From positions 1-48,842 of the forward strand of contig JACPAH010000003.1 in NCBI GenBank assembly GCA_016180925.1: a DNA stretch of 48,842 nucleotides, written 5' to 3'. Source of the stretch: Candidatus Aenigmatarchaeota archaeon. GTDB lineage: Archaea; Aenigmatarchaeota; Aenigmatarchaeia; GW2011-AR5. This document shows positions 20,155-39,802 of the stretch, in pieces; position 1 is the first letter of the stretch; each line of letters starts with the position of its first letter. Below the pieces are notes generated by a model. That model was given only the letters and a program-made list of their open reading frames with translations, had not been told where the DNA came from and searched no databases. A program made the translations under genes and the position numbers.

Positions 20155-21375
20155 TCATATGCCGAATCTCTCGTTCAGCAGAGCGCTTATTTTTTGCATC
20201 GCGTTCTCGTTTATGGCGAGGGATATCTCCCGCGTTCTTCCGTAGCGCCCGTTGGAGATTACCTTCGCAGTTATTATACCAAGCATGTCGAGCTCGGCTA
20301 TGAGATCGCTTATCCTTCTCTGGGTCAGCGGCTTGAGGCCGGTATTTGTGCATATTGCGCCGTATGAATCGAATACGTCTCCGGTGAGCATCCTCTTATC
20401 GGACCATTGTTTTTGCTGCACCGCCTTCTCATGGAGCTTGATGATGGAATACAGGACTACCTGTGATTGTGTTGGTTGTGATTTTACAGTCTCGACCATC
20501 CTGTCGGTGTCTATCTTGTATTCGGCCATGTCGACGTGTTTTTCGGTGACTATCGGCTCGCCGAGCCTGTCTGCGGTCTCCCCAGCAACCCGGAGCAAGT
20601 CCAGAGCCCTCCGTGCATCCCCGTGTTCCTGGGCGGCAAGAGCGGCGCATTTGCTGAGGGCCGAATCACCGACGCTGCCGTATACGAATCCCGTCAGAGA
20701 CCGCTCGGTTAGTATATCCTTGAGCTGGGAGGCGTTGTAAGGCTTGAATATTATTTCCTCCTCGGAGAGGGATGATTTGACCCTGGTATCGAGGTTATCC
20801 CTGAACGAAACGTCGTTTGTTATACCTATTATCATTATATGGGACTGCTTGAGCTCCGTATTGATTCTGGTGAGATTGTACAGGAAATCGTCGCCTATTT
20901 TCTTGAAAAGGGTGTCTATTTCATCGAGCACTATTATTATCTCCTGTTTTTTTGAGTCTATATTCCCGAAAAATTTTCTATACAAAACGTCGGTAGGAAG
21001 GCCTGTGTCTGGTACCAATTCTCCCATTTCCTTCAGGAGCTGGGCAAATAACCTGTATTCTGTGTCTGCAACTTTCTTCATCTTGCAGTTGATATAGATA
21101 GGCCTTACATCCCGGCCGTGGGTTCCGAGTATTTCGACGAGCTGGCCCAGCACGTATTTGGCGCATATAGTTTTCCCGGTGCCGCAGGTGCCGTATATGA
21201 AAATGTTGTTCGAATTGAACCCCTTCAGGACAGGGGCGATGATAGTGCTAAGGAGCTGTATCTCCTCATCGCGGTGCTGTATTTTATCGGGTATAAAATT
21301 AGAAGAAAGGGTTCTTTTATCGGTAAAAACGCTTTGCTTTTGGACATATTGAGAGAATATATTCTTTATTTCCAT
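20155..21375 (-). CDS. cdc6: Orc1/Cdc6 replication initiator
   Basis: IFIYGTCGTGKTICAKYVL (Walker A), IIIVLDEIDTLFKK (Walker B), C-terminal winged helix region. Confidence 0.95.
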   Translation of the reverse strand: MEIKNIFSQYVQKQSVFTDKRTLSSNFIPDKIQHRDEEIQLLSTIIAPVLKGFNSNNIFIYGTCGTGKTICAKYVLGQLVEILGTHGRDVRPIYINCKMKKVADTEYRLFAQLLKEMGELVPDTGLPTDVLYRKFFGNIDSKKQEIIIVLDEIDTLFKKIGDDFLYNLTRINTELKQSHIMIIGITNDVSFRDNLDTRVKSSLSEEEIIFKPYNASQLKDILTERSLTGFVYGSVGDSALSKCAALAAQEHGDARRALDLLRVAGETADRLGEPIVTEKHVDMAEYKIDTDRMVETVKSQPTQSQVVLYSIIKLHEKAVQQKQWSDKRMLTGDVFDSYGAICTNTGLKPLTQRRISDLIAELDMLGIITAKVISNGRYGRTREISLAINENAMQKISALLNERFGI

Positions 21376-21950
21376 GACAACACCCCTTTATCACAGGCAT
21401 ACCATAAAAAAGCGCGTTTTGGTCATCTCCCGACCCATGTTTCATGTGGAAACACCCTGTGTTTCGTATGGAAAGGGCTCATGTTCCGGTGGAAACGCGT
21501 TGTCTGCCTGTGGAATTAGTACAAATTGGTTCCTGTCATATATAAGTATTTTCCAGCTGCAACAGATTCTTCGTAAAATATACAACCGAACAATAAGAAG
21601 ACCCCATCATTTCGTATGGAAATGTAACTGTTGTGAAGTTGTAGTAGAATGGTATAAAAATTCCTAGCAAAACCAAAAAATTGTTCCCTAAAGGTTGTCA
21701 TCATCAATAAAACGCTTGAAAATATATTTTAAAAAGAATATTTTATACAAAATATTTATTAAAAAATATATTAAAAATCATACTTATTGGCAAAATATAT
21801 ACCAAAAAAGTAGAATCTTTAAGTACATGTAAATATAATTAGAAAAGAGTACTGGTTCTTCATTACTTTTGAAAATAAAATGACTGATACATCAAAAAAA
21901 TCTACAACCAACATAACTACACCATTTCATTGGAAATAACGGGGTCTCTG
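21376..21950. promoter_or_regulatory. Predicted chromosomal replication origin (ORB-like repeats + AT-rich stretch)
   Basis: TTTCATGTGGAAACACC (21440), TTTCGTATGGAAAGGG (21462), TTCCGGTGGAAACGCG (21484), CTGCCTGTGGAATTAG (21504), TTTCGTATGGAAATG (21610), TTTCATTGGAAATAACGGGGT (21925); AT-rich 21655-21880. Confidence 0.8.
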
Positions 21951-21959
21951 TGGTGTCTG

Positions 21960-22071
21960 TTTATTTTCATGTCCAGAATACTTTATGATTCATCATAGAG
22001 ATGAATGCCATACTGAACGTGAAAAGGATACCGCACCATGAATGGTGCGGTTATTCATTTGGTGTTCTGGA
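21960..22071 (+). ncRNA. Candidate structured RNA, copy 2 of a two-copy family
   Basis: P1 TCCAGAATAC/GTGTTCTGGA, P2 TATG-TTCATC/GATGAA-CATA, P3 ACCGCACCA-TGAA-TGGTGCGGT; homologous to 4516-4624. Confidence 0.5.
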
Positions 22072-22081
22072 TAATTGACAT

Positions 22082-34169: not shown

Positions 34170-34478
34170 ATGGGTAGAAAACCGGGTCTAAGCGCGGAAA
34201 AAACAGGGCGTATAATTGGTATTCTTGTGGCAAATCCGGATGGTTTGTGGCTTAGAGAATTGGCCAGAAGATGCGGATGTACGCATGCAACGATATCCAG
34301 ATATCTTAATGGCCCTTCCTTAAAACCATTGATTTTAGATGATGCTATAGGGAATCCGGAAAGGCCTGCTTTACGCCTTATAAGGCTCAAGCCGTTCGTA
34401 ATAGAAAGGCTCCAGCAGGGCCAGAGTTTTGACCAGATAATGAGGTTTTTACGCCTTATGAACAAGATTGAGAAGTAA
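34170..34478 (+). CDS. Helix-turn-helix protein
   Basis: GLWLRELARRCGCTHATISRYLNG is HTH-like; preceded by TATA-like sequences. Confidence 0.6.
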   Translation: MGRKPGLSAEKTGRIIGILVANPDGLWLRELARRCGCTHATISRYLNGPSLKPLILDDAIGNPERPALRLIRLKPFVIERLQQGQSFDQIMRFLRLMNKIEK

Positions 34479-34626: not shown

Positions 34627-35012
34627 CTTCACAGAGACTCCGTGAAGTTCACGTGAACTTCATGAACTTCACGTGAAGTAGTTCGTGAACTTCACGAACT
34701 TCATATGAACCTTCATTTTAATATCTCACAAATATTTATAGATTCAAAGAAGCTATATTGATTTAACTCACATAAATACACTTACTATTAGTTTTAATTG
34801 GAGTAAACTAAAAATATCTTCATATGAATATTCATAAAACCTTCACTAAACCTTCACGAACTTCATAGATATTCACGTGAACTTCACGTATAATTCTTGT
34901 GAATTCACCGTGAAACGCGTGAAGTTAGAGATTTTTGGTGAACATTTTAGTGAACACCGTGAAGTTTCCAGTCAAGTTCACAGAAAAACTTTTTATAGCT
35001 GTGAAGTTCATA
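34627..35012. repeat. Cluster of TTCACGTGAA-type palindromes/half sites
   Basis: TGAAGTTCACGTGAACTTCA (34643-34662), ACTTCACGTGAAGT (34666-34679), AGTTCGTGAACTTCACGAACT (34680-34700), TTCATATGAA (34700-34709; 34819-34828), TTCACGTGAA (34872-34881), TTCACCGTGAA (34904-34914) and further single half sites. Confidence 0.92.
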
Positions 35013-35019
35013 TAATTCA

Positions 35020-36204
35020 ATGGAAGAGGAAAGCTTAAATAGCAGCCAGAATATGCATGAAAACACGGAAATTGGGCAGGCTAAACAGCCAGAGAACGCC
35101 GAAGAAACGGCCATTCAAAATAATGTTCAAACAGCCGTTTCTGACCAGAAAACCAAGCCCACGCCTTTGGGTTCAAGAGAGTGGTTCGAGAAAGCCGGCT
35201 GGACTGGAAACCCGTTTACATTTACTATATTGCCTGAATTATTCGTTGGATATGCCGAACAGACCTCGCGACTGCTGTCTGCAGTGGAAGAAAAACACAA
35301 AATAATACTTCTTATCGGGCCCACAGGCTCGGGAAAAACCACAACGCTGAAGTGGATGTCGGCGCATCTCCCCTCAAACTATGAGTATGCTTACATAGGA
35401 AAACCGCCGAAACACAACGAGGAATTTGTCCAGATATTCAATGAAAAATATACTTCATGGATACCATTTTTTCGGCTCCGTAACATGTACCAAATACCGG
35501 GGTTTTTGAACAAAAAAATAGGGAGGAAGCACCTGGTTGTGATGTACGACGAGGCCCAGGAATCGAGCATAGATATCCTGGAATGGCTTCGCGTACTTGG
35601 CGACCAGGTAAATAACATGTCAATAGTGCTTTCCGGCCTGCCTTCGTTCGAGCAGGCGCTGGACAAGCTTGAAACGCTGCGCCGGCGGATAGTCGTGAAG
35701 ATAGGGCTTCTATCCCTCACAAAAGAAGAAACAAAGAATCTTATAAGAAAGCGCATTCAGAACGCCGGCGGCCGCGGGGACGAATTTTCCGACGAGGCGC
35801 TGGATTATGTTTACCACAAGACAGGCGGCTTCCCTCGCGAAATCTTGCGCACGTGCAATGACATGATATATCAGGCGATGAGCGAGGGCAAACCGAGCAT
35901 AACCGCGGAACACATGGAAAAGGAGCCAAAGATGGAAGAACTCGCCCCACCCCTGAGAGTGATGGATGAAATGACGCCGATGCAGAAAGAGGTGATGGAA
36001 ATGCTCCTGAAGCCCATGACGCCTGGCGACATAGCCAACACAATGGACCTTTCGAAGTATAAATCTAGGCAGCATGCCGTGCGTTCCGTGAATAACATCC
36101 TGAAGAGGCTCATGGACGAGGGAATCGTGGAGCGCCGCCGCACGGATCGCGCCTTTGTATACCAGCTTAAGTCTCACATGAAAAATCTGGTCGTCAAAAA
36201 CTGA
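35020..36204 (+). CDS. AAA+ ATPase with C-terminal winged-helix domain (ExeA/TniB/AAA_22-like)
   Basis: NPFTFTILPELFVGYAEQ, LLIGPTGSGKTTTLKWM, LVVMYDEAQESSIDILEWLRVL, GGFPREILRTCNDMIYQAM, C-terminal wHTH MTPMQKEVMEMLLKPMTPGDIANTMDLS. Confidence 0.85.
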   Translation: MEEESLNSSQNMHENTEIGQAKQPENAEETAIQNNVQTAVSDQKTKPTPLGSREWFEKAGWTGNPFTFTILPELFVGYAEQTSRLLSAVEEKHKIILLIGPTGSGKTTTLKWMSAHLPSNYEYAYIGKPPKHNEEFVQIFNEKYTSWIPFFRLRNMYQIPGFLNKKIGRKHLVVMYDEAQESSIDILEWLRVLGDQVNNMSIVLSGLPSFEQALDKLETLRRRIVVKIGLLSLTKEETKNLIRKRIQNAGGRGDEFSDEALDYVYHKTGGFPREILRTCNDMIYQAMSEGKPSITAEHMEKEPKMEELAPPLRVMDEMTPMQKEVMEMLLKPMTPGDIANTMDLSKYKSRQHAVRSVNNILKRLMDEGIVERRRTDRAFVYQLKSHMKNLVVKN

Positions 36205-36621: not shown

Positions 36622-36879
36622 ATGATGCGAAGCAGGGGAAAAGACCTTCTTGGGAAAGTAATAGTTTCGGAAGAGACTGGGAGGAAGTTCGGCGTCGTCG
36701 GCGACATAAACTTCATCTCCGATACTGGCGAGCTCCTCAACATCGTCCTCACGGAGCCGACAAAACATATAGGCGACCTTACGCTTGACCGCGACGAAAG
36801 CAGCCGCCTTCTTATCCCGTTCTCGTCGGTGAAAAGCGTCGGCGATTTCGTCATAATTTCCGAGAAGGAAATTGTCTAG
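36622..36879 (+). CDS. PRC-barrel domain protein
   Basis: GKDLLGKVIVSEETGRKFGVVGDINFISDTGELLNIVL...IPFSSVKSVGDFVII; GAGGTGATTATA upstream. Confidence 0.85.
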   Translation: MMRSRGKDLLGKVIVSEETGRKFGVVGDINFISDTGELLNIVLTEPTKHIGDLTLDRDESSRLLIPFSSVKSVGDFVIISEKEIV

Positions 36880-36978: not shown

Positions 36979-37353
36979 TTACTGCTGACGCCTTGGTTTT
37001 ATGACCACCATTCCGTTTGGGTCTGATACCTCATAACCACTTCCATCTGTTTCTTCACATACCCAAATTTCATCACGTCTTTTCATGACGTATTTATCGT
37101 CGCTCTGGATGGCGCGTCTCAGCATAGCTCTATATTCAGGATTTGTTTGCCAACTGGGAAAAAATCTTATTCCAGCCTCAGCCGATAACCAAGTTTCGTT
37201 TCCTCGTATAGCATCATCATTTGCCAATACAGTTATACCCGGGGTTTGATACTTCTCTCTCATGCGCCGATTAACCTCATGGTATGCATTTGTCATATCA
37301 TCGGCGCTTGCCGTTTCGTCTAGAACCAGTAATGCCATTCTCATGCTAATCAC
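36979..37353 (-). CDS. Hypothetical protein
   Basis: 124-codon frame overlapping the radA stop by 8 bp; no family recognised. Confidence 0.5.
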
Positions 37354-39802
37354 CCAGGCCGCTTTCCGTCACCGTAAAGACGGCTTCGCCTTCCGGAAGC
37401 GACGGACTGTCGATAAGCCTTGCGATCCTGTTGTTGCCCTTGCTTTTGCGTAAATACATCCGATAGCTTGAATTATGCACCACGAATCCGTTCGCTATAT
37501 AATTATGGTTCTTCGGGATGCTTAAGTCATATAATGGCTCGCTGTTGGGCATTTTCCTTATTTTCCTGATTTTTTTCAGCATTATGTCGCCATGCAGAAT
37601 TTTCATCAAAAAGCCGGCAGTATCAGAATATTTTGTATTTTTCAGGGCAGAAGCGACCTTTGCGAGCTCTTTTTTATGGATATGCTTGTATTCAGCAGAC
37701 CTTGGCCTCATATATAATGACGGATGAAGCCCGGCATCTTTTAACATGTCCCATAAAGTATGCCTGTCGAATGGATATATTTCTTTTGTATAAGTGTTCT
37801 CGCAATGCTCTACCCACCTTTCAAGAAGATTGTTTTTGTCTTCGGCAGTAAGACCTATTTCTCTGTGAAATGTTACAATATGCCTTCCTTCTATAATAAG
37901 ATGCCACGACCTTGTTCCGGCATTAATGCAGGATTCTATGCCGTATCTTAGCAGAAGCATCTGGATAAATTTGATCAATTTTTCATCCTTCTGTGCGATT
38001 GTGATGGCAGGCCTGTTGTTGTGCACATAGCCTTCAGCATCCGCAAACCCACGTATAAATGCGCTGACCTGCTCATTTGCCGACCTTGATACAAGAGAAA
38101 ACATATCTTTTTTGGCTTGGGTCATCAGCTTCACTACAGATATTGAATTTAGCCTCATTCTGAAACAATTCTTGTCCTTTACTTTGGAAATTTTGCCATA
38201 AATGCCAAACAGGTCAGATAAAATACCGTTATAATGCTCCAGAACGCTGCGTCTTTGATCTTTGAATTCAATAGAAAATTTGCTTAAACTACCGTCGCCA
38301 ATAAAATAACCCAGAAGCTGCGACATCTCCGCATTTAATTCCGACGGAAAAGTGAGTTTTCTATGCCTTTGAGACTCATAAGGTTCTGTGCAGTTTAGAA
38401 TATCGTCATCTAACCCAATTTCAATCAATTTATGAATGTTTTTCATATTTGTAGCATATTGCTGGTTAAGAATTCGCCTGAAATGCCTAGGCTCAAAGTT
38501 CATATGGCTGCAAAGCTCTTTTCGAGTCAAGTTCATGTTATTAATGCCATTTTTTATGAGTTCGGACCCCTTTCTGTTGACGGTTACAAAGTCATCAACA
38601 TCTATTTCTGGCAGTTTTTGCATTTTGGTGCTGGTTTTGATATCGGATGCATGGGCTATATAATCCCCGGCTCTTATATCTTCGGCTTTAACCTCTTCTA
38701 TCCCGAAATCTTTGACTCTGAAAAATCTATGAAGCCCCGAAGCTTTGATTTTATATCCCGTGTCAATTTCATATATTTCTTTTATCTCTCTGTTGACAAA
38801 TTTTGCGTCGGAATCCATGTTTTCACTTTTTATTTTACTGAAATCAATGGAAACAAACCTCTCTGGCTGCACATCCTTGATTTCCTTTATTTCACCGTCA
38901 GATAGCTGGACCAGTGTATCGCCTGTCACGCATGCGTGACCTAAGACGTGGCCCCCGACCGCCGCCGTGGGATCGCCGAACATCATGTCCGGCCTGGCCA
39001 TCACCTGGTTTGTTATGTATATCGCGATGTTGTGCATGTCGGCAGTTTTCTGCAAGGCGTGCAGGTGCCTGTTGAGTTTTTGCTGCCTGGGCGCAAGCTC
39101 CCCGCGGCCGGAATAATCAGACCTGAAGTGCGACATGAGGGAATCTATTATGATGAGCTTTACATCGTCCTGTTTTATCAGGTCTTTGGCTTTTTCTGCA
39201 AGAACCACCTGATGGTCCGAATTGTACGCTTTTGCGACCAATATATTCTTCAGTACTTTCTTTGAATCCAGTCCCCTGGCTTCCGCCATCTGGATTATTC
39301 GCTCCGGCCTGAATGTGCTTTCGGTGTCTATGAATATACATTTTCCGTTGAGGCCGCCGCCCGCTTTTGGCAGCTGCACGTTTATCGCGAGCTGGAATCC
39401 CAGCTGCGACTTGCCCGAACCAAACGCTCCGTAAGCCTCGGTTATAGCCTGCGTCTCAACGCCGCCGCCGAGGAGCGCATCGAGGGACTTGCTTCCAGTG
39501 GTTATTTTGCCTATCTCCTTTCTCCTGTCAAGAACTTCATATGCGGACTTGAACCCGCCTACATCGGCCATCTGCCTGGCTGCGGCAATTATCTTGTCGG
39601 CCGTGGCTTCGCCTATCTCGCACGCGGCGACTATGTCTCCTGCAGAAGCGGATGCGATGGAAAGAAGTTCCGTATAGCCGGCCTGCCTGAGTTTTTCGGC
39701 GCCTTTCGGCCCGACACCAGGAAGGTCTTCTATGGTTACTTCCTTCGAACCTTCCGCTACAGGCTCAGAAACGTTTTCTTCATCTTGGTTTTTTTTCGCC
39801 AT
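37346..39802 (-). CDS. radA: RadA recombinase interrupted by an intein
   Basis: HhH + [41 protein letters not shown]...[32 protein letters not shown]. Confidence 0.97.
37472..38932 (-). mobile_element. RadA intein (487 aa) with LAGLIDADG-type homing endonuclease
   Basis: Starts [20 protein letters not shown], ends [17 protein letters not shown] followed by S; endonuclease motifs [14 protein letters not shown] and [15 protein letters not shown]. Confidence 0.95.

Follow-up and report, generated by a model that had tools for sequence, protein, structure and literature searches.

The window (the whole 48,842-nucleotide stretch of DNA analysed here) carries a dense array of short half-sites between the gene for a small HTH protein (34170–34478) and the gene for an AAA+ ATPase (35020–36204). 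The open reading frame of the HTH protein, noted before, is confirmed upstream of the array, and the same window holds orc1/cdc6, DP1 and PolB. The features relevant to what follows are:

20155–21375, minus strand: canonical Orc1/Cdc6, separated from the array by 14 kb
21376–22081, no strand: canonical oriC candidate with six TGGAAA ORB cores and an AT-rich stretch
34170–34478, plus strand: small HTH protein, 102 aa
34628–34716, no strand: left array block, with the palindromes and 13 TTCAY/RTGAA half-sites
34717–34818, no strand: site-free gap of ~100 bp (102), 21% GC, with two CTCACA boxes
34819–35011, no strand: right block of the array, 19 half-sites, starting with TTCAY direct repeats 11–12 bp apart
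34990–34997, plus strand: TATA-like box TTTTTATA of the ATPase promoter, as read from the sequence
35020–36204, plus strand: AAA+ ATPase, 394 aa, with a C-terminal winged helix and, by its model, an Orc1/Cdc6-like architecture
36622–36879, plus strand: PRC-barrel protein, usually directly downstream of the ATPase

A half-site array in helical phase

An earlier note on this DNA had described four palindromes and recurrent TTCAC/TTCAT half-sites in front of the ATPase gene. All four palindromes were found where it had placed them: TGAAGTTCACGTGAACTTCA at 34643–34662, ACTTCACGTGAAGT at 34666–34679, AGTTCGTGAACTTCACGAACT at 34680–34700 (of odd length, with the centre base free) and TTCATATGAA at 34700–34709. 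The half-sites are equally real, with 17 TTCAY and 15 RTGAA between 34628 and 35011, a total of 32 against 4.1 expected from dinucleotide shuffles (z = 14.7). Counted per 450 bp, the array reaches 33 half-sites and the densest other stretch in the window 11. Many of the sites are lone half-sites in direct repeat and not palindromes of the parS kind. The genome, 81% complete at 844 kb, has three copies of the 10-mer TTCACGTGAA, every one inside the array, and the reversed control gave 0 matches in the same 844 kb; five of the eight genomic copies of TTCAYN5CTTCAY also lie in the array.

The spacing of the half-sites follows the DNA helix. When 48 arrays are pooled, the distances between half-sites on the same strand peak at 11, 20–22, 30–33, 41–43 and 51–54 bp, and half-sites on opposite strands are offset by approximately half a turn. 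The best common period, fitted with palindromic pairs left out, is 10.4–10.5 bp (mean cosine 0.61, 4765 pairs from the 48 arrays), and the phase score is positive in every array family examined. The window array taken alone gives a resultant of 0.75, compared with a null maximum of 0.53 in 2000 random placements. The earlier likening of the sites to iterons is apt as a comparison, except that the regularity resides in the helical phase and not in the palindromes. Such phasing suits many identical subunits docking in register, for example on opposite faces of the DNA according to orientation, and we infer that a filament may form along the array.

The two CTCACA boxes, at 34725 and 34767, are 42 bp apart inside the site-free gap, and their counterparts align within the same family. 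This hexamer recurs in large arrays (110 occurrences, 9.4 expected), where pairs are often 32, 42 or 84–85 bp apart. The original find is real and understated. The array is more regular than had been described, and the site-free gap, the CTCACA boxes and the helical phasing are all additions to it. The phasing provides a clean case of DNA geometry being kept while the sequence between the sites drifts.

The ATPase and its arrays across the phylum

The Walker A motif (GPTGSGKT), the DEAQE motif and the C-terminal winged helix previously read in the ATPase are all confirmed. The sequence models that it matches are AAA_22, the MuB-like phrog_296 and, below threshold, TIGR03015 (80.6 bits, cut-off 324.5), whose alignment stops before the winged helix. 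It fails TIGR02928 (16.5 bits, cut-off 181.3), and within the genome of the window Cdc6_C is found in the separate orc1 gene only. A search for a close relative of solved structure found none. The fold model, calculated from a seven-sequence alignment (pLDDT 77, pTM 0.59), predicts an AAA+ domain, a lid and a confident winged helix at ~314–393, which are the elements of the Orc1/Cdc6 architecture, and a Foldseek search with it places Orc1/Cdc6 chains at the top (2qby_A and 2v1u_A at TM ~0.6). As modelled, the protein looks like Orc1/Cdc6 in architecture but does not pass as Orc1/Cdc6. At recognition-helix residue 352, H rather than N goes with large arrays (Fisher p = 4e-11, rank 2 of 336 columns); we have downgraded this link because it involves only 4–5 changes on the tree and 3 usable independent pairs. 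A defence system was considered and rejected, PADLOC giving weak AAA+ matches only, and no relatives of the ATPase were found in viral contigs when the single window protein was used as query.

A strong match to the ATPase is present in ~110 of the 156 genomes of the phylum, so that the protein is conserved in most of it, and it is mostly single-copy. Within the order this is the case in 27 of the 31 genomes and in all eight of the near-complete ones. The named archaeal relative among the matches listed is CP070662.1 ("archaeon isolate bin779"). The PRC-barrel protein is 49–86% identical across the phylum; to tie it to the archaeal cell-division PRC-barrel proteins (CdpB) would be a guess. RadA, beyond it in the window (37346–39802, minus strand), has an intein with a LAGLIDADG domain, and the RadA of CP070662.1 (L059) is without an intein.

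Roughly half of the loci examined have a large array of 12–44 sites in front of the ATPase gene, and the others usually have 2–10 sites around its TATA box. Large arrays are found in families f1–f7, f10–f13, f23–f26 and f32 and in single or few members of f30 and f31, while f14, f21, f28, f30 and f31 have mostly compact sets of 1–10 sites. Site counts in distant relatives are intergenic; they replaced counts over a fixed 450-bp upstream stretch, which were dropped because TTCAC also arises within the coding sequence of LigT, from the HFT motif. The 15-bp double-site pattern TTCACGTGAASTTCA has 109 matches in the phylum and its reversed control has 0. Tallied by hand from the match lists, 102 of these are upstream of the ATPase, 6 are next to the HTH gene where a contig ends, and 1 is beside PolB/orc1. 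The earlier note had allowed that orthologs might lack the palindromes, or that an unrelated global regulator might occupy the sites genome-wide. Site arrays do precede the ATPase in relatives, and the sites are not spread over many promoters; with the 10-mer confined to the array and 102 of the 109 double sites at ATPase genes, a global regulator is excluded.

One genome, G106, has its ATPase 295 kb from orc1 and without an array there, so the protein does not depend on having a large array. Another, G096, has a second full cassette (L279, G096:C1:459500-466500) of HTH gene, 28-site array, ATPase, PRC-barrel protein and RadA, ~200 kb from an array-poor copy near orc1. Four contigs (G148:C2 and C17, G149:C66, G154:C6) end inside arrays; short-read assemblies may therefore break at the locus and under-report arrays.

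Promoter layout, replication genes and the possible role of the array

The TATA-like box of the ATPase promoter is flanked by half-sites at 34977, 35001 and 35007. In compact sets the TTCAY repeats usually come right before the TATA box, with RTGAA close to the start codon, so promoter control looks to be the most widespread part of the layout. Promoter-proximal half-sites persist in most families without a large array, and sites that overlap or flank the ATPase's own promoter, as expected of an operator, are seen in the window as well as in most relatives with compact sets. The suggestion that the array serves an autoregulator is supported by this layout.

The orc1/cdc6 gene, the six ORB cores and the AT-rich stretch (20155–22081) are likely to be the canonical origin, ~13 kb from the array. 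The oriC candidate has 6 TGGAAA cores against 0.47 expected and falls to 16% GC over 150 bp; the array has one such core against 0.40 expected. The distance between ATPase and orc1 is usually 2–60 kb, and 40 of the 42 pairs on the same contig are within 61 kb (median 17 kb). On 17 of 26 large contigs the ATPase is no more than 60 kb from orc1, where 14% would be expected, the relatives not being independent of each other; in f32 the two genes are close neighbours on the same strand. The presence of the ATPase also tracks that of Orc1/Cdc6. Of the genomes with a completeness of at least 80%, 75 carry the two together, 22 lack both, 5 have the ATPase only and 4 Orc1 only (9 discordant), and the co-loss may represent only a few events. 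Neither canonical Orc1/Cdc6 nor the ATPase was detected in families f15 and f17–f20 (e.g. G066, G067, G079); most f17/f18 genomes, without both, retain the PRC-barrel protein.

The same half-sites are found at ORB-containing regions of some relatives. In ten ORB clusters picked without regard to half-sites, there are 78 masked half-sites against 27 expected. The excess is carried by six of the ten, in f14, f30 and f31, and the remaining four have no clear excess. We infer that half-sites at such putative origins bind the same protein as the array. Small phased clusters lie beside PolB in G116, G118, G120 and G125. Three loci beside PolB near orc1, L277 3996–4205 (G120), L284 4601–4875 (G116) and L296 9500–9800 (G118), combine GTGAA half-sites, several at 11-bp spacing, with ORB cores. 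The idea that array lineages have lost canonical ORBs was not supported.

The reading that we prefer, and to which we give about an even chance, is that the array is both a binding platform and the operator of the downstream ATPase, which acts in Orc1/Cdc6-dependent replication. The winged helix of the ATPase would contact the GTGAA half-sites. With whole-turn spacing between the sites, numerous subunits could line up next to one another in a nucleoprotein complex that would be co-operative and probably dependent on ATP; this complex would cover the TATA box of the ATPase promoter and so limit the ATPase's own expression. In replication the protein might work as a second initiator-type or initiation-control factor. 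The arrangement, shared by much of the phylum, together with the joint presence and absence of ATPase and Orc1/Cdc6, suggests a DNA-binding machine that is probably self-regulated and linked to replication.

Strong autoregulation without any replication role would account for the TATA-flanking operators, the most widespread part of the layout. The linkage and co-loss with orc1 would then be by-products of housekeeping clustering and genome reduction, and the neighbours, including RadA, RPA, DnaG, DP1 and PolB, do make the whole region a replication gene cluster. We think this rather unlikely: up to 44 sites over ~1 kb are more than an operator needs, the half-sites recur at ORB clusters, and the PRC-barrel protein stays where both ATPase and Orc1 are lost. 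The binder could instead be the small HTH protein, with the array as its operator controlling the ATPase operon. No confident Pfam family was found for this protein, whose gene is kept at the locus throughout the order and lies near it in several other families. It is adjacent in the order, f23–f26 and f32, lies not far away in f11 and f13, and is matched more weakly around the locus in f7, f10 and f14; most genomes with an array have it close by. The array fragments at the contig ends of G148, G149 and G154 adjoin it. Its dismissal for non-adjacency in f7 and f10–f13 was withdrawn when a search with a profile turned up relatives close to the locus in several of these families. However, the HTH match is absent in G032, G038 and G044 despite 24–34 sites, f17/f18 genomes without the ATPase still carry HTH relatives, and promoter sites persist beside the ATPase where no HTH gene is adjacent. 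An HTH operator is accordingly a rather improbable account, and the HTH protein a less likely binder than the ATPase.

The array might also be a second origin, as the earlier note suggested. It would be an origin in its own right, with the ATPase as its dedicated initiator, beside the Orc1/ORB origin 13 kb away. The Orc1/Cdc6-like architecture of the ATPase, an initiator-like gene adjoining its sites, the linkage and co-occurrence with orc1, and the two site blocks flanking a 102-bp gap of 21% GC in the window all point this way. On the other hand, the window already has a canonical ORB origin candidate, the GC skew of three relatives (G106, 740 kb; G009, 400 kb; G092, 400 kb) does not turn clearly at either locus, relatives do not consistently have an AT-rich central gap, and several families keep the ATPase without a large array. 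We consider such an origin unlikely. Less likely again is a centromere-like partition site on which the ATPase loads and organises or segregates the origin region. It would fit with there being one array, near orc1, in the stretches checked and with TTCACGTGAA, a 10-mer that is found in papers, being identical to the core of bacterial parS. Against it, many sites are direct-repeat half-sites and not parS palindromes, by Pfam the ATPase is not of ParA type but an AAA+ protein with a winged helix, and whole families are without a large array. Partition of the ParB–parS kind, also raised before, is rejected because ParB_N (PF02195) is absent from 30 of the 31 genomes of the order; the one genome that has it is not that of the window.

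The platform-and-operator reading has a stronger form, which we offer tentatively and think probably overstates the case. The ATPase would represent a second initiator family of Orc1/Cdc6 architecture, belonging to one phylum; it would assemble into a helically phased filament both at ORB origins and on the array in its own promoter. Replication initiation in these archaea would then involve two AAA+ winged-helix proteins, and the array would be an origin or an initiation-control centre. Few studies deal with replication control in these small archaea, and nothing that describes it was found in open-licence PMC text. The ATPase stands out as a concrete candidate for a replication or cell-cycle factor hitherto missing, and the array offers a ready-made DNA substrate for studying it.

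Comparison with known systems

No description of such a layout was found in a search of open-licence PMC text. Like ParB–parS, the array has the palindrome core TTCACGTGAA and lies near an origin; unlike it, the half-sites occur in any orientation with many direct repeats, and the full parS palindrome is not the unit. The closest family models by sequence, the XrtA/PEP-CTERM ATPase of TIGR03015 and the MuB-like phrog_296, have the AAA+ core in common with the ATPase, and no transposase or PEP-CTERM genes were identified next to the locus.

DnaA, an AAA+ protein that binds DNA, has sites in the region of its own promoter and clustered short sites near the origin. The present system resembles it in having an AAA+ protein with clustered short sites, putatively bound by it, in its own promoter region and near an origin. 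A homology extending past AAA+ was not found, however, a winged helix replaces the DnaA DNA-binding domain, and the array sites are far more strictly phased. Passages of PMC8203912 describe DnaA as an autoregulated AAA+ initiator.

With archaeal Orc1/Cdc6 the modelled ATPase shares the AAA+ domain, lid and C-terminal winged helix and the position of its gene beside a repeat array. It differs in failing Cdc6_C and TIGR02928, in having sites that are GTGAA half-sites in helical phase and not ORBs, and in being accompanied by a canonical Orc1/Cdc6. The system would be one of the initiator-plus-site-array kind, with a helical phasing of its sites that had not been noticed before.
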